In this document: positions 15,501 to 49,972 of the stretch, piece by piece
Numbering within the stretch: position 1 is the first letter of the stretch
How the letters are laid out: each line of letters starts with the position of its first letter
Origin: Tachypleus tridentatus
Lineage: Eukaryota; Arthropoda; Merostomata; Xiphosura; Limulidae
Direction: 5' to 3'
Assembly (NCBI RefSeq): GCF_004210375.1
Contig: NC_134834.1
Coordinates: forward strand, 15,237,857 to 15,301,856
Length of the DNA stretch: 64,000 nt
The notes under the pieces: generated by a model
The model's database searches: none
What the model was told of the DNA's origin: nothing
What the model saw: the letters and a program-made list of their open reading frames with translations, nothing else
Translations under genes and position numbers: made by a program

Positions 15501-18500
15501 AAAGTACAGAAAATGGCCATTATTCCCTTCAAACTTTGCTTTTGTGACCTGGATAATGAAATTTATAAATTAACCTATTTTCTGTGTAAAAAGGGACAAA
15601 TTTGTACATTTTCATTTACATAAGGTCTGAATAAAACAACATATGGATCAAGATTTACATGTATTTATACTAAAGTTATACAGAAATGTTTAGAAGTGAG
15701 TAGTTTTTCGAGATTTGCGACTGTAATGTAAATCATTTTCACATATCAGTCCCCAAATATAATCTCCCATCATGTTTTTGTTATACATTCTCTGGTCACA
15801 GAAACAAAGTTTGAATAGAAAAATAGGTCTTTTCCATTTACTTTAGGCTTAAGCAATTGGTAAATAACACTTTCTGTCCAGGAACAAGAAACAGTAAAAC
15901 TTTTGTTACACAGCGTAATCAGTAATCAGTCATTTCTAGTTTTAACCCCTATTGCAGTGTCTTCAAGCTGTTGGAGATTCTTCCTGTTTCTCTTTAATTA
16001 ATGCAGTGTCTATAACTTGCATGACCCTTTTACTGACTTTGATAGCATCAGCTCGTTACAGTCTAAACATACAGTGGAAAGTTTCTTAATGTGTTTATCT
16101 TGAGTTTGTTTCACAAATCAATCTGTGTATAATCATATTTCATGCTCTCTGGTGGTGAATTCTGAGGACAGTCATTTCTTGCTCAGTGATGCTACACATT
16201 GCATTTGCACAATATAATTATATGGTCACATTTTCTACTGGCACTTTATATGATAAATGTGCACATATTTGTTTCTGTGGTTGTTCTGATGCTGTGATGA
16301 CATGTTAACCATTCCCTGAACTCATTTGGAAGTTCTATTTTCCAGTTTCTCTTCTTTATATAATTATGAATCCAGAGTTTTGTTTAATGGAGGCAGGGAA
16401 ACATCTTGACCTTCCTTTTTGGGAAGTTATAACTCGAGCTGTTGAAGTATGCTGTTTTTAGGTACCTTTTGTTTTTCAGGTAGTATCTAGAAATAATTAA
16501 TCTCAGTCAGGAAATATGGATTCTGACTCTTAGTATAAGCAAGAAAAATACTGTGAAAAATGTAAATAAATGGAAGGTGATATGTATTGACAAAAAACAA
16601 AATTACAAGTGCACTGGAAAAATACAGCATCATTATTGAAAGTGAAGATTGAACCTGATAAGAACTTGTTCCAATTTGAAAGTATATAAAATAAAGATTC
16701 TACAGTTTTACTTATCTCAATGTGGATGTAAAGGTTACTGAAAGACATTCCAAGAGAAAAATAAAAGTTTTAAACTTAACGTGTCATCTGACCTGCATTG
16801 GTGTATTCTATTCTACAGCTGTCTTTTGCATGAAAAAGTACACATATAACATAGAGGTGGCCAAGAATAACAGGTAGCTAGAGTGAAAGGAACTTAGCCG
16901 AGTCCCTTGATTTTATTTTTGTTGTTACAATTAAACAAATATTGTATGTGCAAAAATTTTTTGAATTGTTAGAGAACTTAAAACTCTTATCTTAACTGAA
17001 GGTAAATACTAGGTATGCATCTGCATACCATTGAAGGTATTTATTCTTAAAATGTCATTTTTGGAAATCATGGGTTTGAAAGTTGGTGTCAAACATGCTC
17101 ATCTTAGGAATATTGTAGTGTGACTATCAGTCACCTTATTCATACATAAAGAATAGCACAAGAGTTTGTGGTAGGTATTTATGGCCATTCATCTTTCTTG
17201 TGGTCAGCAGTTCAGAGTTAGTGACTTCAATAAGTAGCCTTAGTAATTTTCTCTTGAACAAATATTTGAAAATGGATCAAGTGATGGGTCATTTGATGAT
17301 CAATGATTTCTCCGAGTTGGTCTATTCTTTAACAGGACATTTTTACCTCACAGAGAGACTTCATGTATAGTAGGTTTGTTGCAGAACTAATAATCAGTGA
17401 TGTCGAGAAAACCCACTTGTAGAGAAATATATATGCAAAAACACCACACCAACATTATTTATAAAATACAATGTGATAACTACCACAACTTCTATATTGG
17501 AAAACAAGTAGAAAAATGGAAACCAGATTCAAAGAACATAAAAAGTCACCTTCACACGTTTTTGAACACTGCAAGTCAAATAAACACAACATAACCATAG
17601 AAAACACTCAAATACTAAATAAAGAAACAAACATAAACAAACGCAAAATTAAAGAAGCCTTACTTATACAACAACTCAAACCCAAAATAAACCAATATAA
17701 AGGCACGCCTTTATACCTATATTAATATAATAAAATAAATAAAATTATATATTCAAACATCTAACACAGCCCTCTACATTCTGACACTCAGTTACACAAC
17801 CCCTTTCAAACATGTAGTCAGCTTCCGGTCAGTTACCTCTTTCTGTGTGAACCTGACGATGACCGATTAAGGTCGAAACGTTGTTTGCTCTTCTATGTAA
17901 AATATTTTCTCAACCCAAACAAGCCGTTTTTGCATATATGTGTTGCAGAACTGTTGTGATCCAATCATCAAATTTTTTCCTTTTCAGAAACAACCCAGGA
18001 ACAAACTACCTTTGTTTTGAACTAGTGCCTTTTATCTTATTTTTAATAACATTTGGAAAAGTGCTCTTTAATTTTTTTTTAACAATGTTCAAATGAGGAG
18101 TCCCACAGTTCTTTTTCACCTCTTAAACTGTCAGTCTTTCTTATCTGCCTATTTTTTAACCAGCAAATATACATTTTCCTTCTGATTGATTATATTAGTT
18201 CACTGTGGTATTTATTTCACACTTACAACCAGTTGTGAAACCTGTGTTGTTTTACAACATTTCATATTTTGAGATGGGGTGGAATTTTTTTTATTGATAT
18301 GATATTTGATGACATACAACAGGTAGCTAGAGTGAAAGGAACTTTGCCATGTTTCTTGATTGATATTATGTTGAAAAAGGTTAGTATAGAAAAACTATTT
18401 CCTTTAATTCATTCATCTGGTTCCTCATTGGTCACATTTGTTTTGTATGTGAGAACAACTGTTAGTTTGAGCCTCTTATGTTAATAATGTATTTAGCTCT

Positions 18501-21500
18501 TGTGTTCTCATCAGGGTTGCTAAAGAACTTGTTCTGCTGTGCTTGGGAATGATTTTTGTCATATTTTGGGATCACTTTGAATACCTTACTACAAATTCTG
18601 GACTGTATTGCAAGTTGAGATGAGTGATGAACTACTAACTAACGTGGCAGGGGTTTAGTTTAGAGAGAGAGAAATCAGAAGAGTTCTCTCTCCAACTGGG
18701 GTGTTCAGGAACGTTGTGGTTCTTCGTCCTCTTTTGTGAATTGTTATTAGGAATAAGTTGTTTTTTTGTTGTTTTTTTTAAATTAATCATTATTATTATT
18801 TTTAACTCTTTGGGTGGAGGATGTCTCTAAATGTTGTCTTGGGTGGAGGCAAAGGCAGCACCGGAAAGAAAGGCCGAGACCTGACCCAAAAGGAAGATAT
18901 GAATAGAATTCAAATCAAATCAAACGGCGTGATTCAGGGTCATGAGTGATGAAAAACAAATCTTCTTTTTAACTGTCTTGACCCAGAATTGAATGATAAA
19001 GGTTTTTATTGTCTGTTTGGTGTACTGGTCAGTGTGTTACTTGACTTTTATTTGCAAACACCTTTTAGGGCCAGATTATTGTATTTATGGTACATAAACT
19101 ATTGGATATTTTAAAGTTACAACTCATGTTCCCTCTAATTTTTTCAGTCCATGTACAGAATTAATTTCTTCATTTGCACCAGTAACAAGAAAATGTGCTG
19201 ATGTGTGCTACCAGTGTTTTTGTTGTTTTTATTTTTGTGGGGGGTGTGTGTATTTTTTGACCATGATTTCTATTGGGCTTTAGGCCTATCAGTTGCCAAG
19301 GTTATTAAGGATGTGCGTGGCATTTGATTGGTCGTCATGCAGCTTAAAAGGAACACTGATTACAACCTCCAGTTTACTTTCCACTTTGTAAATATTTTCT
19401 GCATTAAACTTGTAGTAGGAGCATTGTGTTCCATATTAACTTTTTATCAATAAAATATAATTCAAATAGGTGCTCACACCTACTGTTCCATCCTCCATAT
19501 GGTACAAATAGGTGTTTACACCGACTGTTCCATCCTCCATATCGTACAAATAGGTGCTCACACCGACTGTTCCATCCTCCATACTGTACAAATAGGTGCT
19601 TACACCTACTGTTCTATCCTCCATATCGTACAAATAGGTGCTTACACCTACTGTTCCATCCTCCATACTGTACAAATAGGTGCTTACACCTACTGTTCCA
19701 TCCTCCATATCGTACAAATAGGTGCTTACACCTACTGTTCCATCCTCCGTACTGTACAAATAGGTGCTTACACCTACTGTTCTATCCTCCATATCGTACA
19801 AATAGGTGCTTACACCTACTGTTCCATCCTCCATACTGTACAAGTAGGTGCTTACACCTACTGTTCCATCCTCCATATCGTACAAATAGGTGCTTACACC
19901 TACTGTTCCATCCTCCATACTTTACAAATAGGTGCTTACACCTACTGTTCCATCCTCCATACTTTACAAATTTGGAAAAAAGTAATAATGGTAATAATGT
20001 TAAGTGGAAGTGTACACATCAGAATGAACTATTAGTGTTTGATAAGGAATGATTGGCCTGAAAATTCTGTCAACCAAGGGCATGAGATCTTTACATAACT
20101 GTATGGTAGAGACAAGTAACTCTGGTTCAGGGTTATGGTAGAGACATGTAACTCTATGGTTCAGGGTTACAGTAGAGACAAGTAACTCTATGGTTCAGTG
20201 TTACAGTAGAGACAAGTAACTCTATGGTTCAGTGTTACAGTAGAGACAAGTAACTCTATGGTTCAGGGTTACTGTAGAGACAAGTAACTCTATGGTTCAG
20301 GGTTACAGTAGAGACAAGTAACTATGGTTCAGGGTTACAGTAGAGACAAGTAACTCTATGGTTCAGGGTTATAGTAGAGACAAGTAACTCTATGGTTCAG
20401 GGTTATAGTAGAGACAAGTAACTCTATGGTTCAGGGTTATAGTAGAGACAAGTAACTCTATGGTTCAGGGTTATAGTAGAGACAAGTAACTCTATGGTTC
20501 AGGGTTATAGTAGAGACAAGTAACTCTATGGTTCAGGGTTATAGTAGAGACAAGTAACTCTATGGTTCAGGGTTATAGTAGAGACAAGTAACTCTATGGT
20601 TCAGGATTACTGTAGAGACAAGTAACTCTATGGTTCAGGGTTACTGTAGAGACAAGTAACTCTATGGTTCAGGGTTACAGTAGAGACAAGTAACTATGGT
20701 TCAGGGTTACAGTAGAGACAAGTAACTCTATGGTTCAGGGTTACAGTAGAGACAAGTAACTCTATGGTTCAGGGTTACAGTAGAGACAAGTAACTCTATG
20801 GTTCAGGGTTACAGTAGAGACAAGTAACTATGGTTCAGGGTTACAGTAGAGACAAGTAACTCTATGGTTCAGGGTTACAGTAGAGACAAGTAACTCTATG
20901 GTTCAGGGTTACAGTAGAGACAAGTAACTCTATGGTTCAGGGTTATAGTAGAGACAAGTAACTCTATGGTTCAGGGTTATAGTAGAGACAAGTAACTCTA
21001 TGGTTCAGGGTTATGGTAGAGACAAGTAACTCTATGGTTCAGGGTTATAGTAGAGACAAGTAACTCTATGGTTCAGGGTTATAGTAGAGACAAGTAACTC
21101 TATGGTTCAGGGTTATAGTAGAGACAAGTAACTCTATGGTTCAGGGTTACAGTAGAGACAAGTAACTCTATGGTTCAGGGTAACAAGTAACTCTATGGTT
21201 CAGGGTTACAGTAGAGACAAGAAACTCTGGTTAGACAAGTCTATGGTTCAGGGTTACAGTAGAGACAAGTAACTCTATGGTTCAGGGTTACAGTAGAGAC
21301 AAGTAACTCTATGGTTCAGGGTTATGGTAGAGACAAGTAACTCTATGGTTCAGGGTTACAGTAGAGACAAGTAACTCTATGGTTCAGGGTTACGGTAGAG
21401 ACAAGTAACTCTCTATGGTTCATGGTTAGTAGAGACAAGTAACTATGGTTCAGGGTTATCATGGTTCACAGTAGAGACAAGTAACTCTATGGTTCAGGGT

Positions 21501-24500
21501 TATGGTAGAGACAAGTAACTCTATGGTTCAGGGTTAAGTAGAGACAAGTAACTCTATGGTTCAGGGTTATGGTAGAGACAAGTAACTCTATGGTTCAGGG
21601 TTACAGTAGAGACAAGTAACTCCTCATGGTTCAGGGTTATGGTAGAGACAAGTAACTCTATGGTTCAGGGTTACAGTAGAGACAAGTAACTATGGTTCAG
21701 GGTTATGACAAGTTCATGGTTCAGGGTTACAGTAGAGACAAGTAACTCTATGGTTCAGGGTTACAGTAGAGACAAGTAACTCTATGGTTCAGGGTTACAG
21801 TAGAGACAAGTAACTCTATGGTTCAGGGTTACAGTAGAGACAAGTAACTCTATGGTTCAGGGTTACAGTAGAGACAAGTAACTATGGTTCAGGGTTACAG
21901 TAGAGACAAGTAACTCTATGGTTCAGTAGAGACAAGTAACTCTATGGTTCAGGGTTATAGTAGAGACAAGTAACTCTATGGTTCAGGGTTACAGTAGAGA
22001 CAAGTAACTCTATGGTTCAGGGTTATAGTAGAGACAAGTAACTCTATGGTTCAGGGTTACAGTAGAGAGTAACTCTATGGTTCAAGTAGACAAGTCTATG
22101 GTTCAGGGTTACAGTAGAGACAAGTAACTCTATGGTTCAGGGTTAGAGTAGAGACAAGTAACTCTATGGTTCAGGGTTATGGTTCAGGGTTAGAGACAAG
22201 TAACTCTATGGTTCAGGGTTATAGTAGAGACAAGTAACTCTATGGTTCAGGGTTACAGTAGAGACAAGTAACTCTATGGTTCAGGGTTATGGTTCAGTAA
22301 CTCTATGGTTCACAGTAGAGACAAGTAACTCTATGGTTCAGGGTTACAGGGTAGAGACAAGTAACTCTATGGTTCAGGGTTACAGTAGAGACAAGTAACT
22401 CTATGGTTCAGGTTCAGGGTTACAGTAGAGACAAGTAACTCTATGGTTACAGAGGTTATGGTTCAGGGTTACAGTAGAGACAAGTAACTCTATGGTTCAG
22501 GGTTATGGTAGAGACAAGTAACTCTATGGTTCAGGGTTATAGTAGAGACAAGTAACTCTATGGTTCAGGGTTATGGTAGAGACAAGTAACTCTATGGTTC
22601 AGGGTTATGGTAGAGACAAGTAACTCTATGGTTCAGGGTTATGGTAGAGACAAGTAACTCTATGGTTCAGGGTTATGGTAGAGACAAGTAACTCTATGGT
22701 TCAGGGTTCAGAGACAAGTTATGGTTCAGGGTTACAGTAGAGACAAGTAACTCTATGGTTCAGGGTTACAGTAGAGACAAGTAACTCTATGGTTCATGGG
22801 GTTACAGTAGAGACAAGTAACTCTATGGTTCAGGGTTACAGTAGAGACAAGTAACTCTATGGTTCAGGGTTACAGTAGAGACAAGTAACTCTATGGTTCA
22901 GGGTTACAGTAGAGACAAGTAACTCTATGGTTCAGGGTTACAGTAGAGACAAGTAACTCTATGGTTCAGGGTTACAGTAGAGACAAGTAACTCTATGGTT
23001 GGTTTCAGAGACAAGTAACCTATGGTTCAGGGTTAGTAGAGACAAGTAACTCTATGGTTCAGGGTTACAGTAGAGACAAGTAACTCTATGGTTCAGGGTT
23101 ACAGTAGAGACAAGTAACTCTATGGTTCAGGGTTACAGTAGAGACAAGTAACTCTACAGTAGAGACAAGTAACTCTATGGTTCAGGGTTACAGTAGAGAC
23201 AAGTAACTCTATGGTTCAGGGTTACAGTAGAGACAAGTAACTCTATGGTTCAGGGTTACAGTAGAGACAAGTAACTCTATGGTTCAGGGTTACAGTAGAG
23301 ACAAGTAACTCTATGGTTCAGGGTTACAGTAGAGACAAGTAACTCTATGGTTCAGGGTTACAGTAGAGACAAGTAACTCTATGGTTCAGGGTTACAGTAG
23401 AGACAAGTAACTCTATGGTTCAGGGTTACAGTAGACAAGACAAGTAAGTAACTATGGTTCAGGGTTACAGTAGAGACAAGTAACTCTATGGTTCAGGGTT
23501 ACAGTAGAGACAAGTAACTCTATGGTTCAGGGTTACAGTAGAGACAAGTAACTCTATGGTTCAGGGTTACAGTAGAGACAAGTAACTCTATGGTTCAGGG
23601 TTACAGTAGAGACAAGTAACTCTATGGTTCAGGGTTACAGTAGAGACAAGTAACTCTATGGTTCAGGGTTACAGTAGAGACAAGTAACTCTATGGTTCAG
23701 GGTTACAGTAGAGACAAGTAACTCTATGGTTCAGGGTTACAGTAGAGACAAGTAACTCTATGGTTCAGGGTTACAGTAGAGACAAGTAACTCTATGGTTC
23801 AGGGTTATAGTAGAGACAAGTAACTCTATGGTTCAGGGTTACAGTAGAGACAAGTAACTCTATGGTTCAGGGTTATGGTAGAGACAAGTAACTCTATGGT
23901 TCAGGGTTACAGTAGAGACAAGTAACTCTATGGTTCAGGGTTACAGTAGAGACAAGTAACTCTATGGTTCAGGGTTACAGTAGAGACAAGTAACTCTATG
24001 GTTCAGGGTTACAGTAGAGACAAGTAACTCTATGGTTCAGGGTTACAGTAGAGACAAGTAACTCTATGGTTCAGGGTTACAGTAGAGACAAGTAACTCTA
24101 TGGTTCAGGGTTACAGTAGAGACAAGTAACTCTATGGTTCAGGGTTTCAGAGACAAGTCTATGGTTCAGGGTTACAGTAGAGACAAGTAACTCTATGGTT
24201 CAGGGTTACAGTAGAGACAAGTAACTCTATGGTTCAGGGTTACAGTAGAGGTAACTATGGTTCAGGGTTAGAGACAAGTAACTCTATGGTTCAGGGTTAC
24301 AGTAGAGACAAGTAACTCTATGGTTCAGGGTTACAGTAGAGACAAGTAACTCTATGGTTCAGGGTTACAGTAGAGACAAGTAACTCTATGGTTCAGGGTT
24401 ACAGTAGAGACAAGTAACTCTATGGTTCAGGGTTAAGTAGAGACAAGTAACTATGGTTCAGGGTTACAGTAGAGACAAGTAACTCTATGGTTCAGGGTTA

Positions 24501-27500
24501 CAGTAGAGACAAGTAACTCTATGGTTCAGGGTTACAGTAGAGACAAGTAACTCTATGGTTCAGGGTTACAGTAGAGACAAGTAACTCTATGGTTCAGGGT
24601 TATAGTAGAGACAAGTAACTCTATGGTTCAGGGTTACAGTAGAGACAAGTAACTCTATGGTTCAGGGTTACAGTAGAGACAAGTAACTCTATGGTTCTAT
24701 GGTTCATGGTTCAGGGTTACAGTAGAGACAAGTAACTCTATGGTTCAGGGTTACAGTAGAGACAAGTAACTCTATGGTTCAGGGTTACAGTAGAGACAAG
24801 TAACTCTATGGTTCAGGGTTACAGTAGAGACAAGTAACTCTATGGTTCAGGGTTACAGTAGAGACAAGTAACTCTATGGTTCAGGGTTACAGTAGAGACA
24901 AGTAACTCTATGGTTCTATGACAAGTTCATGGTTCAGGTTACAGTAGAGACAAGTAACTCTATGGTTCAGGGTTACAGTAGAGACAAGTAACTCTATGGT
25001 TCAGGGTTACAGTAGAGACAAGTAACTCTATGGTTCAGGGTTACAGTAGAGACAAGTAACTCTATGGTTCAGGGTTACAGTAGAGACAAGTAACTCTATG
25101 GTTCATGGTTACAGTAGAGACAAGTAACTCTATGGTTCAGGGTTACAGTAGAGACAAGTATCTCTATGGTTCAGGGTTATGGTTCAGTAGAGACAAGTAA
25201 CTCTATGGTTCAGGGTTACAGTAGAGACAAGTAACTCTATGGTTCAGGGTTACAGTAGAGACAAGTAACTCTATGGTTCAGGGTTACAGTAGAGACAAGT
25301 AACTCTATGGTTCAGGGTTACAGTAGAGACAAGTAACTCTATGGTTCAGGGTTACAGTAGAGACAAGTAACTCTATGGTTCAGGGTTACAGTAGAGACAA
25401 GTAACTCTATGGTTCAGGGTTATAGTAGAGACAAGTAACTCTATGGTTCAGGGTTATAGTAGAGACAAGTAACTCTATGGTTCAGGGTTACAGTAGAGAC
25501 AAGTAACTCTATGGTTCAGGGTTACAGTAGAGACAAGTAACTATGGTTCAGGGTTACAGTAGAGACAAGTAACTCTATGGTTCAGGGTTACAGTAGAGAC
25601 AAGTAACTCTATGGTTCAGGGTTACAGTAGAGACAAGTAACTCTATGGTTCAGGGTTACAGTAGAGACAAGTAACTCTATGGTTCAGGGTTACAGTAGAG
25701 ACAAGTAACTCTATGGTTCAGGGTTACAGTAGAGACAAGTAACTCTATGGTTCAGGGTTACAGTAGAGACAAGTAACTCTATGGTTCAGGGTTACAGTAG
25801 AGACAAGTAACTCTATGGTTCAGGGTTACAGTAGAGACAAGTAACTCTATGGTTCAGGGTTACAGTAGAGACAAGTAACTCTATGGTTCAGGGTTATGGT
25901 TCAGTAGAGACAAGTAACTCTATGGTTCAGGGTTACAGTAGAGACAAGTAACTCTATGGTTCAGGGTTACAGTAGAGACAAGTAACAAGTCTATGGTTCA
26001 GGGTTACAGTAGAGACAAGTAACTCTATGGTTCAGGGTTACAGTAGAGACAAGTAACTCTATGGTTCAGGGTTACAGTAGAGACAAGTAACTCTATGGTT
26101 CAGGGTTACAGTAGAGACAAGTAACTCTATGGTTCAGGGTTACAGTAGAGACAAGTAACTCTATGGTTCAGGGTTACAGTAGAGACAAGTAACTATGGTT
26201 CTATGGTTCAGGGTTACAGTAGAGACAAGTAACTCTATGGTTCAGGGTTACAGTAGAGACAAGTAACTCTATGGTTCAGGGTTACAGTAGAGACAAGTAA
26301 CAAGTCTATGGTTCAGGGTTACAGTAGAGAGACAAGTAACAAGTCTATGGTTCAGGGTTACAGTAGAGACAAGTAACTCTATGGTTCAGGGTTACAGTAG
26401 AGACAAGTAACTATGGTTCTATGGTTCAGGGTTACAGTAGAGACAAGTAACTCTATGGTTCAGGGTTACAGTAGAGACAAGTAACTCTATGGTTCAGGGT
26501 TACAGTAGAGACAAGTAACTCTATGGTTCAGGGTTACAGTAGAGACAAGTAACTCTATGGTTCAGGGTTACAGTAGAGACAAGTAACTCTATGGTTCAGG
26601 GTTACAGTAGAGACAAGTAACTCTATGGTTCAGGGTTACAGTAGAGACAAGTAACTCTATGGTTCAGGGTTACAGTAGAGACAAGTAACTCTATGGTTCA
26701 GGGTTACAGTAGAGACAAGTAACTCTATGGTTCAGGGTTACAGTAGAGACAAGTAACTCTATGGTTCAGGGTTACATGGTAGAGACAAGTAACTCTATGG
26801 TTCAGGGTTACAGTAGAGACAAGTAACTCTATGGTTCAGGGTTACAGTAGAGACAAGTAACTCTATGGTTCAGGGTTACAGTAGAGACAAGTAACTCTAT
26901 GGTTCAGGGTTACAGTAGAGACAAGTAACTCTATGGTTCAGGGTTACAGTAGAGACAAGTAACTCTATGGTTCAGGGTTACAGTAGAGACAAGTAACTCT
27001 ATGGTTCAGGGTTACAGTAGAGACAAGTAACTCTATGGTTCAGGGTTACAGTAGAGACAAGTAACTCTATGGTTCAGGGTTACAGTAGAGACAAGTAACT
27101 CTATGGTTCAGGGTTACAGTAGAGACAAGTAACTCTATGGTTCAGGGTTACAGTAGAGACAAGTAACTCTATGGTTCAGGGTTACAGTAGAGACAAGTAA
27201 CTCTATGGTTCAGGGTTACAGTAGAGACAAGTAACTCTATGGTTCAGGGTTACAGTAGAGACAAGTAAGTCTATGGTTCAGGGTTACAGTAGAGACAAGT
27301 AACTCTATGGTTCAGGGTTACAGTAGAGACAAGTAACTCTATGGTTCAGGGTTACAGTAGAGACAAGTAACTCTATGGTTCAGGGTTACAGTAGAGACAA
27401 GTAACTCTATGGTTCAGGGTTATAGTAGAGACAAGTAACTCTATGGTTCAGGGTTACAGTAGAGACAAGTAACTCTATGGTTCAGGGTTATGGTCAGAGA

Positions 27501-30500
27501 CAAGTAACTCTATGGTTCAGGGTTACAGTAGAGACAAGTAACTCTATGGTTCAGGGTTACAGTAGAGACAAGTAACTCTATGGTTCAGGGTAGAGACAAG
27601 TAACTCTATGGTTCAGGGTTACAGTAGAGACAAGTAACTCTATGGTTCAGGGTTACAGTAGAGACAAGTAACTATGGTTCAGGGTTACAGTAGAGACAAG
27701 TAACTCTATGGTTCAGGGTTACAGTAGAGACAAGTAACTCTATGGTTCAGGGTTATAGTAGAGACAAGTAACTCTATGGTTCAGGGTTATGGTAGAGACA
27801 AGTAACTCTATGGTTCATGGTTCAGGGTTACAGGGTACAGTAGAGACAAGTAACTCTATGGTTCAGGGTTATGGTAGAGACAAGTAACTATGGTTCTATG
27901 GTTCAGGGTTACAGTAGAGACAAGTAACTCTAGAGACAAGTAACTCTATGGTTCAGGGTTACAGTAGAGACAAGTAACTCTATGGTTCAGGGTTAGTAGA
28001 GACAAGTAACTCTATGGTTCAGGGTTATGGTAGAGACAAGTAACTCTATGGTTCAGGGTTACAGTAGAGACAAGTAACTCTATGGTTCAGGGTTACGGTA
28101 GAGACAAGTAACTCTATGGTTCAGGGTTACAGTAGAGACAAGTAACTCTATGGTTCAGGGTTACAGTAGAGACAAGTAACTCTATGGTTCAGGGTTACAG
28201 TAGAGACAAGTAACTCTATGGTTCAGGGTTACAGTAGAGACAAGTAACTCTATGGTTCAGGGTTACAGTAGAGACAAGTAACTCTATGGTTCAGGGTTAT
28301 AGTAGAGACAAGTAACTCTATGGTTCAGGGTTATGGTAGAGACAAGTAACTCTATGGTTCAGGGTTACAGTAGAGACAAGTAACTCTATGGTTCAGGGTT
28401 ACAGTAGAGACAAGTAACTCTATGGTTCAGGGTTACAGTAGAGACAAGTAACTCTATGGTTCAGGGTTATAGTAGAGACAAGTAACTCTATGGTTCAGGT
28501 AGAGACAAGTAACTCTATGGTTCAGGGTTATAGTAGAGACAAGTAACTCTATGGTTCAGGGTTATAGTAGAGACAAGTAACTCTATGGTTCAGGGTTACA
28601 GTAGAGACAAGTAACTCTATGGTTCAGGGTTATAGTAGAGACAAGTAACTCTATGGTTCAGGGTTACAGTAGAGACAAGTAACTCTATGGTTCAGAGGTT
28701 ACAGTAGAGACAAGTAACTCTATGGTTCAGGGTTACAGTAGAGACAAGTAACTATGGTTCAGGGTTACAGTAGAGACAAGTAACTCTATGGTTCAGGGTT
28801 ACAGTAGAGACAAGTAACTCTATGGTTCAGGGTTATGGTAGAGACAAGTAACTCTATGGTTCAGGGTTACAGTAGAGACAAGTAACTCTATGGTTCAGGG
28901 TTACAGTAGAGACAAGTAACTCTATGGTTCAGGGTTACAGTAGAGACAAGTAACTCTATGGTTCAGGGTTACAGTAGAGACAAGTAACTCTATGGTTCAG
29001 GGTTACAGTAGAGACAAGTAACTCTATGGTTCAGGGTTACAGTAGAGACAAGTAACTCTATGGTTCAGGGTTAGTAGAGACAAGTAACTCTATGGTTCAG
29101 GGTTACAGTAGAGACAAGTAACTCTATGGTTCAGGGTTACAGTAGAGACAAGTAACTCTATGGTTCAGGGTTACAGTAGAGACAAGTAACTCTATGGTTC
29201 AGGGTTACAGTAGAGACAAGTAACTATGGTTCAGGGTTACAGTAGAGACAAGTAACTCTATGGTTCAGGGTTACAGTAGAGACAAGTAACTCTATGGTTC
29301 AGGGTTACAGTAGAGACAAGTAACTCTATGGTTCAGGGTTACAGTAGAGACAAGTAACTCTATGGTTCAGGGTTACAGTAGAGACAAGTAACTCTATGGT
29401 TCAGGGTTACAGTAGAGACAAGTAACTCTATGGTTCAGGGTTACAGTAGAGACAAGTAACTCTATGGTTCAGGGTTACAGTAGAGACAAGTAACTCTATG
29501 GTTCAGGGTTATGGTAGAGACAAGTAACTCTATGGTTCAGAGACAGAGACAAGTAACTCTATGGTTCAGGGTTACAGTAGAGACAAGTAACTCTCATGGT
29601 TCAGGGTTATGGTTCAGTAGAGACAAGTAACTCTATGGTTCAGGGTTACAGTAGAGACAAGTAACTCTATGGTTCAGGGTTACAGTAGAGACAAGTAACT
29701 CTATGGTTCAGGGTTACAGTAGAGACAAGTAACTCTATGGTTCAGGGTTACAGTAGAGACAAGTAACTCTATGGTTCAGGGTTACAGTAGAGACAAGTAA
29801 CTCTATGGTTCAGGGTTACAGTAGAGACAAGTAACTCTATGGTTCAGGGTTACAGTAGAGACAAGTAACTCTATGGTTCAGGGTTATAGTAGAGACAAGT
29901 AACTCTATGGTTCAGGGTTACAGTAGAGACAAGTAACTCTATGGTTCAGGGTTACAGTAGAGACAAGTAACTCTATGGTTCAGGGTTACAAGTAACTAGT
30001 AGAGACAAGTAACTCTATGGTTCAGGGTTACAGTAGAGACAAGTAACTATGGTTCAGGGTTATAGTAGAGACAAGTAACTCTATGGTTCAGGGTTACAGT
30101 AGAGACAAGTAACTATGGTTCAGGGTTACAGTAGAGACAAGTAACTCTATGGTTCAGGGTTACAGTAGAGACAAGTAACTCTATGGTTCAGGGTTACAGT
30201 AGAGACAAGTAACTCTATGGTTCAGGGTTACAGTAGAGACAAGTAACTCTATGGTTCAGGGTATACAGTAGAGACAAGTAACTCTATGGTTCAGGGTTAC
30301 AGTAGAGACAAGTAACTCTATGGTTCAGGGTTACAGTAGAGACAAGTAACTCTATGGTTCAGGGTTACAGTAGAGACAAGTAACTCTATGGTTCAGGGTT
30401 ACAGTAGTTCATGGTTCAGGGTTACAGTAGAGACAAGTAACTCTATGGTTCAGGGTTACAGTAGAGACAAGTAACTCTATGGTTCAGGGTTACAGTAGAG

Positions 30501-33500
30501 ACAAGTAACTCTATGGTTCAGGGTTACAGTAGAGACAAGTAACTCTATGGTTCAGGGTTACAGTAGAGACAAGTAACTCTATGGTTCAGGGTTACAGTAG
30601 AGACAAGTAACTCTATGGTTCAGGGTTACAGTAGAGACAAGTAACTCTATGGTTCAGGGTTACAGTAGAGACAAGTAACTCTATGGTTCAGGGTTACAGT
30701 AGAGACAAGTAACTCTATGGTTCAGGGTTACAGTAGAGACAAGTAACTCTATGGTTCAGGGTTACAGTAGAGACAAGTAACTCTATGGTTCAGGGTTACA
30801 GTAGAGACAAGTAACTCTATGGTTCAGGGTTACAGTAGAGACAAGTAACTCTATGGTTCAGGGTTACAGTAGAGACAAGTAACTCTATGGTTCAGGGTTA
30901 CAGTAGAGACAAGTAACTCTATGGTTCAGGGTTACAGTAGAGACAAGTAACTCTATGGTTCAGGGTTACAGTAGAGACAAGTAACTCTATGGTTCAGGGT
31001 TATAGTAGAGACAAGTAACTATGGTTCAGGGTTACAGTAGAGACAAGTAACTCTATGGTTCAGGGTTACAGTAGAGACAAGTAACTCTATGGTTCAGGGT
31101 TACAGTAGAGACAAGTAACTCTATGGTTCAGGGTTACAGTAGAGACAAGTAACTCTATGGTTCAGGGTTACAGTAGAGACAAGTTACTATGGTAGAGACA
31201 AGTAACTCTATGGTTCAGGGTTACAGTAGAGACAAGTAACTCTATGGTTCAGGGTTACAGTAGAGACAAGTAACTCTATGGTTCAGGGTTACAGTAGAGA
31301 CAAGTAACTCTATGGTTCAGGGTTACAGTAGAGACAAGTAACTCTATGGTTCAGGGTTACAGTAGAGACAAGTAACTCTATGGTTCAGGGTTACAGTAGA
31401 GACAAGTAACTCTATGGTTCAGGGTTACAGTAGAGACAAGTAACTCTATGGTTCAGGGTTACAGTAGAGACAAGTAACTCTATGGTTCAGGGTTACAGTA
31501 GAGACAAGTAACTCTATGGTTCAGGGTTACAGTAGAGACAAGTAACTCTATGGTTCACAGTAGAGACAAGTAACTATGGTTCAGGGTTACAGTAGAGACA
31601 AGTAACTCTATGGTTCAGAGACAAGTTATGGTTCAGGGTTAGAGACAAGTAACTCTATGGTTCAGGGTTACAGTAGAGACAAGTAACTCTATGGTTCAGA
31701 GACAAGTTACAGGGTAGTAGAGACAAGTAACTCTATGGTTCAGGGTTACAGTAGAGACAAGTAACTCTATGGTTCAGGGTTACAGTAGAGACAAGTAACT
31801 CTATGGTTCAGGGTTATGGTTCAGTAGAGACAAGTAACTCTATGGTTCAGGGTTACAGTAGAGACAAGTAACTCTATGGTTCAGGGTTACAGTAGAGACA
31901 AGTAACTCTATGGTTCAGGGTTACAGTAGAGACAAGTAACTCTATGGTTCAGGGTTACAGTAGAGACAAGTAACTCTATGGTTCAGGGTTACAGTAGAGA
32001 CAAGTAACTCTATGGTTCAGGGTTACAGGGTTAGAGACAAGTAACTCTATGGTTCAGGGTTAGTAGAGACAAGTAACTCTATGGTTCAGGGTTAGTAGAG
32101 ACAAGTAACTCTATGGTTCAGGGTTACAGTAGAGACAAGTAACTCTATGGTTCAGGGTTAGTAGAGACAAGTAACTCTATGGTTCAGGGTTACAGTAGAG
32201 ACAAGTAACTCTATGGTTCAGGGTTACAGTAGAGACAAGTAACTCTATGGTTCAGGGTTACAGTAGAGACAAGTAACTCTATGGTTCAGGGTTACAGTAG
32301 AGACAAGTAACTCTATGGTTCAGGGTTACAGTAGAGACAAGTAACTCTATGGTTCAGGGTTACAGTAGAGACAAGTAACTCTATGGTTCAGGGTTACAGT
32401 AGAGACAAGTAACTATGGTTCAGGGTTACAGTAGAGACAAGTAACTCTATGGTTCAGGGTTACAGTAGAGACAAGTAACTCTATGGTTCAGGGTTACAGT
32501 AGAGACAAGTAACTCTATGGTTCAGGGTTACAGTAGAGACAAGTAACTCTATGGTTCAGGGTTACAGTAGAGACAAGTAACTCTATGGTTCAGGGTTACA
32601 GTAGAGACAAGTAACTCTATGGTTCAGGGTTACAGTAGAGACAAGTAACTCTATGGTTCAGGGTTACAGTAGAGACAAGTAACTCTATGGTTCAGGGTTA
32701 CAGTAGAGACAAGTAACTCTATGGTTCAGGGTTACAGTAGAGACAAGTAACTCTATGGTTCAGGGTTACAGTAGAGACAAGTAACTCTATGGTTCAGGGT
32801 TACAGTAGAGACAAGTAACTCTATGGTTCAGGGTTACAGTAGAGACAAGTAACTCTATGGTTCAGGGTTACAGTAGAGACAAGTAACTCTATGGTTCAGG
32901 GTTACAGTAGAGACAAGTAACTCTATGGTTCAGGGTTACAGTAGAGACAAGTAACTCTATGGTTCAGGGTTACAGTAGAGACAAGTAACTCTATGGTTCA
33001 GGGTTACAGTAGAGACAAGTAACTCTATGGTTCAGGGTTACAGTAGAGACAAGTAACTCTATGGTTCAGGGTTACAGTAGAGACAAGTAACTCTATGGTT
33101 CAGGGTTACAGTAGAGACAAGTAACTCTATGGTTCAGGGTTACAGTAGAGACAAGTAACTCTATGGTTCAGGGTTACAAGTAACTCTAGTTCAGACAACA
33201 AGTAACTCTATGGTTCAGGGTTACAGTAGAGACAAGTAACTCTATGGTTCAGGGTTACAGTAGAGACAAGTAACTCTATGGTTCAGGGTTACAGTAGAGA
33301 CAAGTAACTCTATGGTTCAGGGTTACAGTAGAGACAAGTAACTCTATGGTTCAGGGTTACAGTAGAGACAAGTAACAAGTCTATGGTTCAGGGTTACTCT
33401 ATGGTTCAGGGTAGAGACAAGTAACTCTATGGTTCAGGGTTACAGTAGAGACAAGTAACTCTATGGTTCAGGGTTACAGTAGAGACAAGTAACTCTATGG

Positions 33501-36500
33501 TTCAGGGTTACAGTAGAGACAAGTAACTCTATGGTTCAGGGTTACAGTAGAGACAAGTAACTCTATGGTTCAGGGTTACAGTAGAGACAAGTAACTCTAT
33601 GGTTCAGGGTTACAGTAGAGACAAGTAACTCTATGGTTCAGGGTTACAGTAGAGACAAGTAACTCTATGGTTCAGGGTTACAGTAGAGACAAGTAACTCT
33701 ATGGTTCAGGGTTACAGTAGAGACAAGTAACTCTATGGTTCAGGGTTACAGTAGAGACAAGTAACTCTATGGTTCAGGGTTACAGTAGAGACAAGTAACT
33801 CTATGGTTCAGGGTTACAGTAGAGACAAGTAACTCTATGGTTCAGGGTTACAGTAGAGACAAGTAACTCTATGGTTCAGGGTTACAGTAGACAAGTAACT
33901 CTATGGTTCAAGTAGAGACAAGTCTATGGTTCAGGGTTACAGTAGAGACAAGTAACTCTATGGTTCAGGGTTACAGTAGAGACAAGTAACTCTATGGTTC
34001 AGGGTTACAGTAGAGACAAGTAACTCTATGGTTCAGGGTTACAGTAGAGACAAGTAACTCTATGGTTCAGGGTTACAGTAGAGACAAGTAACTCTATGGT
34101 TCAGGGTTACAGTAGAGACAAGTAACTCTATGGTTCAGGGTTACAGTAGAGACAAGTAACTCTATGGTTCAGGGTTACAGTAGAGACAAGTAACTCTATG
34201 GTTCAGGGTTACAGTAGAGACAAGTAACTCTATGGTTCAGGGTTACAGTAGAGACAAGTAACTCTATGGTTCAGGGTTACAGTAGAGACAAGTAACTCTA
34301 TGGTTCAGGGTTACAGTAGAGACAAGTAACTCTATGGTTCAGACAAGGTTATGGTTCAGGGGTAGAGACAAGTAACTCTATGGTTCAGGGTTACAGTAGA
34401 GACAAGTAACTCTATGGTTCAGGGTTACTATGGTAGAGACAAGTAACTCTATGGTTCAGGGTTACAGTAGAGACAAGTAACTCTATGGTTCAGGGTTACA
34501 GTAGAGACAAGTAACTCTATGGTTCAGGGTTACAGTAGAGACAAGTAACTCTATGGTTCAGGGTTACAGTAGAGACAAGTAACTCTATGGTTCAGGGTTA
34601 CAGTAGAGACAAGTAACTCTATGGTTCAGGGTTACAGTAGAGACAAGTAACTCTATGGTTCAGGGTTACAGTAGAGACAAGTAACTCTATGGTTCAGGGT
34701 TACAGTAGAGACAAGTAACTCTATGGTTCAGGGTTACAGTAGAGACAAGTAACTCTATGGTTCAGGGTTACAGTAGAGACAAGTAACTCTATGGTTCAGG
34801 GTTACAGTAGAGACAAGTAACTCTATGGTTCAGGGTTACAGTAGAGACAAGTAACTCTATGGTTCAGGGTTACAGTAGAGACAAGTAACTCTATGGTTCA
34901 GGGTTACAGTAGAGACAAGTAACTCTATGGTTCAGGGTTACAGTAGAGACAAGTAACTCTATGGTTCAGGGTTACAGTAGAGACAAGTAACTCTATGGTT
35001 CAGGGTTACAGTAGAGACAAGTAACTCTATGGTTCAGGGTTACAGTAGAGACAAGTAACTCTATGGTTCAGGGTTACAGTAGAGACAAGTAACTCTATGG
35101 TTCAGGGTTACAGTAGAGACAAGTAACTCTATGGTTCAGGGTTACAGGTTAGAGACAAGTAACTCTATGGTTCAGGGTTACAGTAGAGACAAGTAACTCT
35201 ATGGTTCAGGGTTACAGTAGAGACAAGTAACTCTATGGTTCAGGGTTACAGTAGAGACAAGTAACTCTATGGTTCAGGGTTACAGTAGAGACAAGTAACT
35301 CTATGGTTCTATGGTTCAGGGTTACAGTAGAGACAAGTAACTCTATGGTTCAGGGTTACAGTAGAGACAAGTAACTCTATGGTTCAGGGTTACAGTAGAG
35401 ACAAGTAACTCTATGGTTCAGGGTTATAGTAGAGACAAGTAACTCTATGGTTCAGGGTTATAGTAGAGACAAGTAACTCTATGGTTCAGGGTTACAGTAG
35501 AGACAAGTAACTCTATGGTTCAGGGTTACAGTAGAGACAAGTAACTCTATGGTTCAGGGTTACAGTAGAGACAAGTAACTCTATGGTTCAGGGTTACAGT
35601 AGAGACAAGTAACTCTATGGTTCAGGGTTACAGTAGAGACAAGTAACTCTATGGTTCAGGGTTACAGTAGAGACAAGTAACTCTATGGTTCAGGGTTACA
35701 GGGTTAGTAGAGACAAGTAACTCTATGGTTCAGGGTTACAGTAGAGACAAGTAACTCTATGGTTCAGGGTTACAGTAGAGACAAGTAACTCTATGGTTCA
35801 GGGTTACAGTAGAGACAAGTAACTCTATGGTTCAGGGTTACAGTAGAGACAAGTAACTCTATGGTTCAGGGTTACAGTAGAGACAAGTAACTCTATGGTT
35901 CAGGGTTATAGTAGAGACAAGTAACTCTATGGTTCAGGGTTACAGTAGAGACAAGTAACTCTATGGTTCACGGTTATAGTAGAGACAAGTAACTCTATGG
36001 TTCAGGGTTACAGTAGAGACAAGTAACTCTATGGTTCAGGGTTATAGTAGAGACAAGTAACTCTATGGTTCAGGGTTATAGTAGAGACAAGTAACTCTAT
36101 GGTTCAGGGTTATAGTAGAGACAAGTAACTCTATGGTTCAGGGTTATAGTAGAGACAAGTAACTCTATGGTTCAGGGTTACAGTAGAGACAAGTAACTCT
36201 ATGGTTCAGGGTTACAGTAGAGACAAGTAACTCTATGGTTCAGGGTTACAGTAGAGACAAGTAACTCTATGGTTCAGGGTTACAGTAGAGACAAGTAACT
36301 CTATGGTTCAGGGTTACAGTAGAGACAAGTAACTCTATGGTTCAGGGTTACAGTAGAGACAAGTAACTATGGTTCAGGGTTACAGTAGAGACAAGTAACT
36401 CTATGGTTCAGGGTTACAGTAGAGACAAGTAACTCTATGGTTCAGGGTTACAGTAGAGACAAGTATCTCTATGGTTCATGGTTACAGTAGAGACAAGTAA

Positions 36501-39500
36501 CTCTATGGTTCAGGGTTACAGTAGAGACAAGTAACTCTATGGTTCAGGGTTACAGTAGAGACAAGTAACTCTATGGTTCAGGGTTACAGTAGAGACAAGT
36601 AACTCTATGGTTCAGGGTTACAGTAGAGACAAGTAACTCTATGGTTCAGGGTTACAGTAGAGACAAGTAACTCTATGGTTCAGGGTTACAGTAGAGACAA
36701 GTAACTCTATGGTTCAGGGTTACAGTAGAGACAAGTAACTCTATGGTTCAGGGTTATGGTTCAGTAGAGACAAGTAACTCTATGGTTCAGGGTTACAGTA
36801 GAGACAAGTAACTCTATGGTTCAGGGTTACAGTAGAGACAAGTAACTCTATGGTTCAGGGTTACAGTAGAGACAAGTAACTCTATGGTTCAGGGTTACAG
36901 TAGAGACAAGTAACTCTATGGTTCAGGGTTACAGTAGAGACAAGTAACTCTATGGTTCAGGGTTACAGTAGAGACAAGTAACTCTATGGTTCAGGGTTAC
37001 AGTAGAGACAAGTAACTCTATGGTTCAGGGTTACAGTAGAGACAAGTAACTCTATGGTTCAGGGTTACAGTAGAGACAAGTAACTCTATGGTTCAGGGTT
37101 ACAGTAGAGACAAGTAACTCTATGGTTCAGGGTTACAGTAGAGACAAGTAACTCTATGGTTCAGGGTTATAGTAGAGACAAGTAACTCTATGGTTCAGGG
37201 TTACAGTAGAGACAAGTAACTCTATGGTTCAGGGTTACAGTAGAGACAAGTAACTCTATGGTTCAGGGTTACGGTAGAGACAAGTAACTCTATGGTTCAG
37301 GGTTACAGTAGAGACAAGTAACTCTATGGTTCAGGGGGTAGAGACAAGTAACTCTATGGTTCAGGGTAGAGACAAGTAACTATGGTTCTATGGTTCAGGG
37401 TTACAGTAGAGACAAGATGGTTCACAAGTAGACAAGTAACTCTATGGTTCAGGGTTACAGTAGAGACAAGTAACTCTATGGTTCAGGGTTACAGTAGAGA
37501 CAAGTAACTCTATGGTTCACGGTTACAGTAGAGACAAGTAACTCTATGGTTCAGGGTTACAGTAGAGACAAGTAACTCTATGGTTCACGGTTACAGTAGA
37601 GACAAGTAACTCTATGGTTCAGGGTTACAGTAGAGACAAGTAACTCTATGGTTCAGGGTTATAGTAGAGACAAGTAACTCTATGGTTCAGGGTTATAGTA
37701 GAGACAAGTAACTCTATGGTTCAGGGTTATAGTAGAGACAAGTAACTCTATGGTTGAGGGTTATAGTAGAGACAAGTAACTATGGTTCAGGGTTAGAGTA
37801 GAGACAAGTAACTATATGGTTCACGGTTATAGTAGAGACAAGTAACTCTATGATTCAGGGTTACAGTAGAGACAAGTATCTCTATGGTTCATGGTTACAG
37901 TAGAGACAAGTAACTCTATGGTTCAGGGTTACAGTAGAGACAAGTAACTCTATGGTTCAGGGTTACAGTAGAGACAAGTAACTATGGTTCAGGGTTACAG
38001 TAGAGACAAGTAACTCTATGGTTCAGGGTTACAGTAGAGACAAGTAACTCTATGGTTCAGGGTTAAGGTAGAGACAAGTAACTCTATGGTTCAGGGTTAC
38101 AGTAGAGACAAGTAACTCTATGGTTCAGGGTTACAGTAGAGACAAGTAACTCTATGGTTCAGGGTTACAGTAGAGACAAGTAACTCTATGGTTCAGGGTT
38201 ACAGTAGAGACAAGTAACTCTATGGTTCAGGGTTACAGTAGAGACAAGTAACTATGGTTCAGGGTTACAGTAGAGACAAGTAACTCTATGGTTCAGGGTT
38301 ACAGTAGAGACAAGTAACTCTATGGTTCAGGGTTACAGTAGAGACAAGTAACTCTATGGTTCAGGGTTACAGTAGAGACAAGTAACTCTATGGTTCAGGG
38401 TTACAGTAGAGACAAGTAACTATGGTTCAGGGTTACAGTAGAGACAAGTAACTCTATGGTTCAGGGTTATAGTAGAGACAAGTAACTCTATGGTTCAGGG
38501 TTACAGTAGAGACAAGTAACTCTATGGTTCAGGGTTACAGTAGAGACAAGTAACTCTATGGTTCAGGGTTATAGTAGAGACAAGTAACTCTATGGTTCAG
38601 GGTTACAGTAGAGACAAGTAACTCTATGGTTCAGGGTTATAGTAGAGACAAGTAACTCTATGGTTCAGGGTTACAGTAGAGACAAGTAACTCTATGGTTC
38701 AGGGTTATAGTAGAGACAAGTAACTCTATGGTTCAGGGTTATAGTAGAGACAAGTAACTCTATGGTTCAGGGTTATAGTAGAGACAAGTAACTATGGTTC
38801 AGGGTTAGAGTAGAGACAAGTAACTCTATGGTTCAGGGTTATAGTAGAGACAAGTAACTCTATGGTTCAGGGTTATAGTAGAGAGACAAGTAACAAGTAA
38901 CTCTATGGTTCAGGGTTACAGTAGAGACAAGTAACTTTATGGTTCAGGGTTACAGTAGAGACAAGTAACCCTATGGTTCAGGGTTACAGTAGAGACAAGT
39001 AACCTTATGGTTCAGGGTTACAGTAGAGACAAGTAACTCTATGGTTCAGGGTTACAGTAGAGACAAGTAACTCTATGGTTCAGGGTTACAGTAGAGACAA
39101 GTAACTCTATGGTTCAGGGTTACAGTAGAGACAAGTAACTCTATGGTTCAGGGTTACAGTAGAGACAAGTAACTCTATGGTTCAGGGTTACAGTAGAGAC
39201 AAGTAACTCTATGGTTCAGGGTTACAGTAGAGACAAGTAACTCTATGGTTCAGGGTTACAGTAGAGACAAGTAACTCTATGGTTCAGGGTTACAGTAGAG
39301 ACAAGTAACTCTATGGTTCAGGGTTACAGTAGAGACAAGTAACTCTATGGTTCAGGGTTACAGTAGAGACAAGTAACTATGGTTCAGGGTTACAGTAGAG
39401 ACAAGTAATTCTATGGTTCAGGGTTATACTAGAGACAAGTAACTCTGTGGTTCAGGGTTATAGTAGAGACAAGTAACTCTATGTATCATATTTCATTGAT

Positions 39501-42500
39501 GAAATGTCCATACTTATTACTAAACATTCTATAAATATTAACTTTTATATATAATAGTAATTAAATTTATATATTTTTCTCCAGAAAAGCTTCTCCAGTA
39601 AATAAATTGGAGGATGAAAATAGTGAAATAAAGCTTCCTTCTTCTCCAGACGATATCCATGAAAATATTAAGTCAAAGTTTCTCGTAACAATGCCAGAAG
39701 ACTTCTTTCATTTTTGGGAGTTTTGTAAATCCATGAATGCTGAAAAGCCACAGGGTAACCTTTAAACTCAAAATTGTTTCTTTCTGTAAAATAATAATAA
39801 AGATTGTTTGCCAGTATGGGACAGAAAGTTCCTGTACTTAAAACTTCGTATTACACAACTTAAAACATTTTAAATTATGTTTATTTTCAGAGAAATAGGT
39901 GGAGTGTAATTATTAAAATTTGTTAGCTGGTACATTTAATTTTTTAACAAACAATTAAAATGTGTGTTATCTTTTATAAATGTGTGCATAATATTATGAG
40001 TATTGTTTTAAGGTGTTTCTAAAATAAATAATCATTGTATTTGAATTTGTTAAACTATGAAATATTAAGGCTTTAGTTATCACATGTATGATATTTTGTG
40101 CAATGCTTTCTCTCAACAAAACATGCAGGGGGCTGGGTCATTAGACTGACTATAATTCGAAATTTATTGTGTTTTTTTCATAGAACCTAACGAGCTTTTA
40201 TTATTATGTACATGTCTGTGAATTATCAATTTCACTATGGCTCAGGCTGAGAAGTTGTGGTCAAGATAATGCACATTTGATAAAAATATGTATTATTTTG
40301 TCCTGCTTACAGTTTACATCTACTTGACCCATGAACTCTTCAGAATGCAACCTACACTTTTATTCAGTATTTCTGTATTTTGTATCTGATACTTCCTCTC
40401 TTCTACCTCAAATTGTTGTTAACTAATCACTTTAGAGTAAAAAAAAATAGATAGCTCTGACATCAAATATATAATACCATTCTGTAAAAGTTTATGACAT
40501 ATGATCCTTGGCCCTCCCTATACAAATAAGGTTAAATAATTATTACATTGCTAAATAATATCCAGAAAACTGACACAACTTCAGTGAAGAAGCCACTTGT
40601 CATGCTAGAAGTCTCAGATTTTATCCCAAGACAAGGAGATGCTGGAACTTAGAGCTTAACCATTTTCAGCCCCTGTAATAGTGATTTCCTTTATAGATGG
40701 ACTTAGAAATAACATTTTGACTTAGAGTTTAGATTAATTCTGTTCATTATAAAGGAAATTATAGAGATTTGTTCTCAAGTTCATTTATTCCACAAGCTTG
40801 TGGAACCTTCAGTTGGACAGAGGTTATTAAGTCTTTAACAATGTTTATAAAAATGCTAGCCAAAGGTGTACGTGGTTTCTTATAGCAAAGTGACCTCAGG
40901 CTATATGCTGTGTCTACCGAGAGGAAACAATTCCCTGATTTTAGCATTGTAAGTCAAAGAAACTTATATACTGTCCCACAGTGGGATGTGTACTGAGTGA
41001 ACAGATTTCTAAGCTTGTATTAAGTTTAATGATACAATGAAATCCACATTTATAGCTACCCCATTCTTACCCCAATGCTGTTGTAAATCACTCTAGACTA
41101 TTAATTTACAATTATATAGTTTTTACTTTTAAGAATTATTATATTTAATATTGTACATGAAGTCACAAGTCCTTAGTCTTCTGTGGCATAAGCTGGTTGG
41201 TTTTCCAACATTTTATTTGAGGCTAAGGCAGTTTAACTGGTTTGTTCTAGATGCCTTAAAAAATGCATTGGGAATTGAACTTGTAGGACCATTTGATATT
41301 CTGGGGAAAAAGCTTAGGAACATTCATGTACAGAAACCCAGTGACTTCCTCCGTCACTGGCGATATTACTACGATCCACCAGAGTTTCAGACGGTCTTTA
41401 AAGGTGACAACAAAACCCAGTATCACTTAGGATACTTCAGGTAAAACGTTTCTCCTTCCAAAATAATTTTGTTGCCGATCGACTGTTTAACTGTATACGA
41501 TGGTAAAAGTTCACCGTGTTTCCATCATGTATAAAAGGATAAAACAGAAACTGTTTAAAATTACTTTGTTTTTTACTACTTAAGTTTTAAGATCACTTAT
41601 CCATCCACTGTAGAACTTTTAAATACAGACGTAGTCAGACGAGAAGAAAACTAGTCGGAGAAATGTATTTAGTGCATGTGTTTGAGATTTGAAGACATCT
41701 TGTGTTGATAGTAAGGAACATCATATTGATGTAAGTAACTTCAGGGGTATTTATTTATGTTAAATGGACAACTTCCAAGTTCACAGGAAGTATCATGATT
41801 CATAAGTGGTTATACAAAGAGTGTTAACTGATTTCTCCTGAGAGATGTTAGGAGAATAACTAACCTTCTTGTTCACATTAGAGATGAACCCGGTGAACCA
41901 CCAGTATTTGTAGCTGCTAATTCTGCTACTAGGGGATGCAAGATCACTCCTGTAGGCGACAATCTTTTTGCTGCTGTCAAGTAAGTTCTTACCTTTAACC
42001 CTTTTTACAACAGAAATCTTATGGTAAAACCTCATAGCGTGAGAGGTTTTCTTTACATTTCTACCCACTACATGAAATATGGTTATTTCTTTGCCTGTTT
42101 TGCATTTTGTGTGGTTCAATTGAAAATGATTTTAAAGTAAACAAGAATTCTATATTAATTGGTCATGTGTTAGCAGTATCAAGTATACCTATGTTTGCAG
42201 TATAAATCAAAACCTAGTCTGAGAACTATGATCCAAGAGTTAGCTGTTAGTACTGTCAAATAACTGCTTTCCTTCCAATCTACCAGTTTAAAATTATGGA
42301 TAGCTTGCTGTATCTATGTGAAAGAAATTCCACCAACTCCACGTATATATACATTTAATACATTTGGTAATGATCTCAAATTTGTATAGTCTTTTCAATA
42401 AGTAACATAAAGGAACTTCTGTTGCTGAAGGGTTTTTGGACAAATAACTAAGAACCATTTTGTTCTATCTGGTAAAAGTTTATGATTTATGTTGGGAATC

Positions 42501-43911: not shown

Positions 43912-43989
43912 ATATCTCATTGATAAGAGCATATATATATTCATTACTTAGATTGGTGTAGTTCTTATATATTTTATGTAGCTTATTAA

Positions 43990-43995
43990 AATAAA
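43990..43995 (+). terminator. HPF1 polyadenylation signal AATAAA
   Basis: A canonical AATAAA about 80 bp after the HPF1 stop, followed by a T-rich stretch (GTTTGTTTTT) that could serve as the downstream element. It implies a short 3' UTR of about 100 nt. Confidence 0.75.
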
Positions 43996-44095
43996 ACTGA
44001 GTTTGTTTTTTATATAGTTCACTTTATGATTGGGTGTTTATGAAACGAATTAGAAAACCAGAATTGTAGGCAAATGAGAAAATACATAAGGTCAG

Positions 44096-44101
44096 TTTAT
44101 T
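44096..44101 (-). terminator. Lipoxygenase polyadenylation signal (minus strand)
   Basis: TTTATT on the plus strand reads AATAAA on the minus strand, about 140 bp after the lipoxygenase stop at 44238. It lies about 100 bp from the HPF1 signal, so the two convergent genes have almost touching 3' ends. Confidence 0.65.
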
Positions 44102-49917: not shown

Positions 49918-49972
49918 ACTATTTTAGAAAAGTACATACAAATAACAACAACAAACCTTAAAACTTCTGAAC

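Follow-up and report, generated by a model that had tools for sequence, protein, structure and literature searches.

A 19.4-kb minisatellite array in an HPF1 intron of the horseshoe crab Tachypleus tridentatus, very probably an ordinary locus-private repeat

How an almost uniform tandem array of some 19.4 kb comes to lie within an intron of HPF1, a widely conserved gene, is the question raised by a stretch of the genome of the horseshoe crab Tachypleus tridentatus (NCBI RefSeq assembly GCF_004210375.1, contig NC_134834.1, here C10). The whole stretch analysed, 64,000 nucleotides at C10:15237857-15301856, is referred to as the window, and positions are those of the window unless preceded by C10. 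The array has a unit of 34 bp, and the original prediction had presented it as a satellite that is out of place in such a gene. The analysis described here leads to a simpler answer, namely that the array is very probably an ordinary, hypervariable intronic minisatellite (a variable number of tandem repeats, VNTR), private to its locus, grown by local duplication, removed with the intron, and accompanied in this genome by many comparable arrays with units of their own. The array and the gene that holds it are laid out as follows.

20106-39483, plus strand: 34-bp minisatellite array of about 570 units, consensus GTAGAGACAAGTAACTCTATGGTTCAGGGTTACA (Tandem Repeats Finder and cyclic alignment)
19463-19971, plus strand: 42-bp minisatellite of 12 units in HPF1 intron 2, 134 bp left of the 34-bp array (Tandem Repeats Finder)
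12364-12513, plus strand: HPF1 exon 1, with the PBZ zinc finger (domain match; donor picked by score)
14447-14495, plus strand: HPF1 exon 2, predicted, with no homology support of its own (gene model, splice scores)
39585-39754, plus strand: HPF1 exon 3; the alternative start 39590 is in phase with donor 14495 in the window copy
41251-41440, plus strand: HPF1 exon 4 (gene model, Pfam)
41882-41980, plus strand: HPF1 exon 5 (gene model, Pfam)
42708-42946, plus strand: HPF1 exon 6 (gene model, Pfam)
43607-43911, plus strand: HPF1 exon 7, including the stop codon (gene model, Pfam)

Tandem Repeats Finder reports 569.6 copies with a period of 34 over 19378 bp (score 31912), a size that is as assembled in one assembly, and alignment to the cyclic consensus resolves 573 head-to-tail units, of which 372 are exact consensus and whose mean identity to it is 97.5%. 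An array of this kind falls within the definition of a minisatellite (head-to-tail units of about 7-100 bp). The shortest unit has 19 bp and the longest only 49 bp, so the array holds no foreign insert. The near-uniform array of about 19.4 kb and 570 units between HPF1 exons 2 and 3, free of foreign insertions, was thus correctly recognized in the original prediction, as repeat finder, cyclic alignment, unit lengths and the domain matches of the exons agree. There is no coding content, the longest stop-free run being 56 codons. The units fall into 103 distinct types and 110 of them carry an indel; no higher-order repeats were found in the array, and its rare variants share no long common blocks. 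Identical non-consensus units stand next to each other 24 times, compared with a mean of 4.9 and a maximum of 14 in 2000 shuffles, which indicates that variants have spread locally. In the mechanism that we propose, a short piece of unique sequence in HPF1 intron 2 would have been duplicated in place, and repeated slippage during replication or unequal exchange would then have multiplied it to about 570 copies that turn over rapidly; the array would be transcribed and then spliced out along with intron 2, and would have no function of its own.

The predicted host gene has seven exons across 12364-43911 and encodes a protein of 398 residues, in which Pfam recognizes the HPF1 domain (PF10228, E-value 3.8e-98) and an N-terminal PBZ finger (PF10283, E-value 2.9e-10), the latter a feature known in HPF1 orthologues of insects, sea urchins and mollusks (PMC4858568). 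Intron 2 spans 25.1 kb (14496-39584), of which the 34-bp array takes up 19.4 kb, and its remainder also bears repeats, namely the 42-bp array and a repeat element of about 480 bp.

Whether the unit belongs to a family found at many places can be answered from the genome as a whole (2,167,478,450 bases in 205 contigs). The 31-base core of the unit has 536 exact copies on a single strand; 384 of these fall in the window and the remaining 152 in a second copy of the same locus, so that by exact cores, mismatched or diverged copies having been left out of the search, the unit is private to the HPF1 locus and its second copy. This is not the distribution of a classical satellite, in which one family occupies many loci or long blocks, and the notion of a displaced satellite did not hold up, given this confinement and the abundance of other arrays described below. 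By the same evidence it is barely conceivable that a dispersed satellite or a transposon-borne repeat landed in the intron: SINE-like (short interspersed element-like) and other repeat elements are indeed frequent in the window, but the flanks of the array resemble no dispersed element when compared within the window, and collections of viral and prokaryotic contigs contain no exact copy of the unit.

The second copy makes it possible to see how the array changes. It sits farther along the same contig, with its exon 3 some 72 kb downstream of exon 3 in the window copy, and was examined over C10:15339225-15371856, starting 37 kb to the right of the window. It is preceded by a gap of 500 N (C10:15338725-15339224), after which the sequence resumes inside the 34-bp array, continues through 9,644 bp of it and then passes into HPF1 exon 3 and onward, into a neighbouring lipoxygenase gene. 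In its unique DNA it is 98.5% identical to window positions 39484-46733 (7264 aligned positions, 64 substitutions, 20 gap openings) and 98.7% identical to 49346-49973 (628 aligned positions). Besides the 34-bp array, the comparison involves two large arrays in the window.

46734-49345, strand not assigned: 65-bp minisatellite of 40 units in a lipoxygenase intron (Tandem Repeats Finder)
49974-64000, strand not assigned: 46-bp minisatellite between lipoxygenase exons, extending beyond the window to 26.0 kb in total (Tandem Repeats Finder)

All arrays longer than 300 bp that are reached in the second copy match the window side in site and unit, but in none of the five that are spanned in full is the length the same: 2612 bp on the window side versus 3389 bp in the second copy for the 65-bp array, 26000 versus 6181 bp for the 46-bp array, 1125 versus 693 bp for a 19-bp array, 2488 versus 1627 bp for a 31-bp array, and 301 versus 496 bp for a 39-bp array. 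The 34-bp array itself, 19378 bp long in the window, has at least 9644 bp in the second copy, where it ends at the assembly gap; there it is less uniform, with 145 of 283 units exact and, when two variable positions are excluded, 1.1% substitutions versus 0.3% in the window. The two copies have only 14 unit types in common (of 103 in the window and 84 in the second copy), and the order of their units is scarcely collinear, the best local score being 21.8, compared with 10.8-20.5 in eight shuffles and 20.4 for the reversed order. The likeness between copies is above every internal control at both edges of the 31-bp array and on the left side of the 65- and 46-bp arrays; on the right side of these last two, and of the 34-bp array, it is not. 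Lengths, edges and unit order fit minisatellites that turn over fast.

The second copy is probably the other haplotype, retained unpurged in the assembly. It is unlikely, if a reading to be taken seriously, that it is instead a true tandem duplicate of the HPF1-lipoxygenase region, in which case the array lengths would differ between paralogues and not between alleles. The position of the two copies on one contig speaks for a duplicate, as do five exon indel events of 1-2 bp relative to the window, of the kind expected in a decaying copy. On the other hand, the second copy starts within the array, directly after a scaffold gap, like the broken contig of another haplotype, its flanks differ from those of the window by the 64 substitutions and 20 gap openings given above, and three of the five indel events lie in a homopolymer run or create one, as is typical of residual long-read errors. 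The same facts bear on whether the size of the array is an artefact of assembly, be it collapse, expansion or chimera. The locus does occur twice around a gap, and the indels between copies point to imperfect polishing; yet the copy beyond the gap also has at least 9.6 kb of the 34-bp array next to the same unique right flank, and the 103 distinct unit types would give long reads anchors, so that an artefact appears quite improbable.

The indels also affect the reading phase across the array. According to the original prediction, exons 2 and 3 are in phase, which stands only through the weak acceptor at 39590: with donor and acceptor scores computed from splice matrices, the top donor, 14495 (10.4 bits), and the top acceptor, 39585 (7.9 bits), are out of phase in the window copy, and the acceptor that is in phase with 14495 scores just 1.1 bits. 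The second copy has one extra G just past the acceptor, with which the strong pair comes into phase when translated by hand, together with four further exon indels (the five events are at 39588, 39684-39686, 41306, 41889 and 43820), so that the phase is blurred by indels. These differences suggest residual sequencing errors of the assembly. A phase-restoring extra exon was sought in 14500-19462, where three overlapping or weak candidates, none with homology, were obtained, and none in the antisense control. The splicing of exon 2 to exon 3 across the array is a prediction.

It has been considered, too, that the array may act on its gene by slowing transcription, by offering U1-binding or splicing decoys, or by forming R-loops, and thereby regulate HPF1. 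Its sense strand carries 546 copies of the donor-like CAAGTAACT and its antisense strand has no site of 4 bits or more, AATAAA and ATTAAA are absent from the 19.4 kb, and the GC skew is about +0.3 along the array. Each of the first two properties has a plainer source, for an equally good donor is present in 29% of shuffled units and the absence of poly(A) signals follows from the repetition of a single unit. In the 46- and 65-bp arrays the best donors on the lipoxygenase sense strand reach just 0.0 and 4.2 bits, and array lengths differ between the two copies of the locus. A splice-decoy or telescripting role was rejected, as the donor-like site is no commoner than chance, and regulation of HPF1 by the array in any of these ways is very improbable.

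The array can be compared with repeats in introns of other animals. Few human introns are known to contain arrays of around 19 kb. The original prediction held that expansions this large are usually found in heterochromatin, a premise that is too strong, because TRACT, a 30-bp VNTR in an intron of human CACNA1C, spans about 3 to more than 30 kb, with long alleles of about 24 kb (PMC13131567, a preprint). TRACT resembles the HPF1 array in its unit of about 30 bp, its intronic site, its size range, its few common unit variants and its runs of perfect copies, to which its growth is ascribed (PMC13131567). Its alleles differ greatly in length, much as the two copies of the HPF1 locus differ in all of the neighbouring arrays that are fully spanned; the host, the gene and the unit are different, and TRACT is tied to disease-risk haplotypes, its long alleles going with lower expression in two tissues (PMC13131567). 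TRACT is nearly the same object and a direct precedent. The human minisatellite VNTRs and complex tandem repeats are similar as well in unit size, location in introns and variable copy number, and the reference set of them makes up 0.52% of the human genome (PMC8096271, PMC10502081). The Drosophila genes kl-3 and kl-5 also have tandem repeats in their introns, which are transcribed, but there the satellite is simple, measures megabases and belongs to Y-loop genes of spermatocytes, whereas HPF1 is a widely conserved gene with 19 kb of a private unit (PMC6508621); at 25.1 kb, intron 2 falls well short of the gigantic introns of the Y-loop type (hundreds of kb to Mb). No earlier description of the HPF1 array was found among the top-ranked literature matches listed.

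Samples taken elsewhere in the genome indicate how common such arrays are. Counting as minisatellite any unit of at least 15 bp in at least three copies, stretches at 5 Mb of contigs C1-C14 (n = 14) contain 61,769 of 139,671 bp, or 44% (bootstrap 26-64%), random 2-kb stretches (the first 20 of 60 drawn places) 7,044 of 40,000 bp, or 17.6% (bootstrap 4-35%), and contig midpoints (n = 14) 2,000 of 14,000 bp, or 14%. Three of the fourteen 10-kb stretches at 5 Mb are almost entirely repeat, and mononucleotide shuffles of the 34 stretches of the 5-Mb and random samples gave 0 bp of minisatellite. When 66 arrays from the window, its neighbourhood and the samples were compared, with the second copy excluded, there were six related pairs of units, and each pair came from a single place. 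The minisatellite load is therefore high and local in origin, in samples that are small and whose intervals overlap, and minisatellites are possibly denser away from the chromosome middles, subject to the same small samples. In three other arthropods, tandem repeats of 1-50 bp amount in total to 1.3%, 2.4% and 2.9% (PMC3152781), a rough yardstick only, since these values come from different methods and from older assemblies. In the main text of two horseshoe crab genome papers, as far as it was searched, the terms “satellite” and “tandem repeat” were not found. A tentative extension, to which we would give somewhat less than an even chance, is that the genome is filled by thousands of locus-private minisatellites with units of about 20-110 bp and no shared family. 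Their share would be perhaps a fifth of the 2.17 Gb, with a possible excess outside the middles of chromosomes, and they would grow in introns of ordinary genes and shift several-fold in length between haplotypes.

Several observations weigh against the reading of the array as one fast-changing private minisatellite among many. The similarity between copies at the right edge of the 34-bp array is 0.966, below the internal control maximum of 0.984, so the homology of the two arrays rests on their unique flanks, and the second copy, beginning as it does at a 500-N gap, could be a paralogue. The argument for slippage is drawn from the clustering of like neighbours, and the analysis of microhomology at unit junctions was dominated by one recurrent variant. 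Since the exon indels are taken to be residual sequencing errors, some of the indel units of the 34-bp array may be errors as well. Finally, minisatellites are patchy in the samples from which the array is counted as one of many, with none at all in 3 of 14 places at 5 Mb, 14 of 20 random places and 12 of 14 midpoints.

The gene to the right of HPF1 completes the description of the locus, with the following exon pieces in the window.

44241-45782, minus strand: 3' exon pieces of a lipoxygenase gene (45579-45782, 44511-44675, 44241-44432; Pfam and PDB matches)
49371-49469, minus strand: probable lipoxygenase exon, flanked by the 65-bp and 46-bp arrays (Pfam profile positions 459-491, E-value 0.021, below the curated cut-off, order correct)

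The piece at 45579-45782 has a Pfam match with an E-value of 6.5e-06. In joined queries, it also matches PDB lipoxygenases (1.8e-05), the piece at 44241-44432 matches the C terminus of 5-LOX in PDB (1.1e-04), and the piece at 44511-44675 is weak (0.026, below the cut-off, in the correct order). A further upstream exon lies near C10:15335462, 33.6 kb to the right of the window (PDB lipoxygenases, E-value 1e-06). Provided that these exons belong to one gene, several arrays besides the 65-bp array and the 46-bp array of 26 kb would lie, like these two, between lipoxygenase exons; HPF1 is not singled out, because the neighbouring lipoxygenase introns also hold arrays. Within the 46-bp array, identity to the consensus is 0.909 on the left and climbs to about 0.99 on the right of the part inside the window, which suggests that the units at its left edge are older.

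Other elements were noted in and near the window. A tRNA-like SINE of about 280 bp was aligned in 10 copies (for instance 49650-49920, 8186-8483 and 11214-11479), one of which ends about 50 bp before the start of the 46-bp array; a fragment of a SINE had no match in the literature searched. The element of about 480 bp, which contains inverted repeats of about 95 bp, occurs at 15420-15906 in HPF1 intron 2 and, in opposite orientation and with 89% identity, at 43093-43574 in intron 6; a third copy is found at C10:15333491-15333960, about 31.6 kb to the right of the window. A retroelement endonuclease remnant, proposed by eye for overlapping open frames at 17394-17722, was discarded, with no match in Pfam and, for 17394-17591 only, none in PDB.

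Taken by itself, the HPF1 array is one further large intronic VNTR, and the minisatellite load of the genome is the more interesting fact. If private minisatellites do prove to be spread genome-wide, this would suggest a lineage unusually permissive for tandem duplication, and its genome would offer a natural setting in which to ask how genes cope with introns that are large and unstable. Should the load be confirmed with reads, this animal would be a good system in which to study the limits on minisatellite growth in genes.

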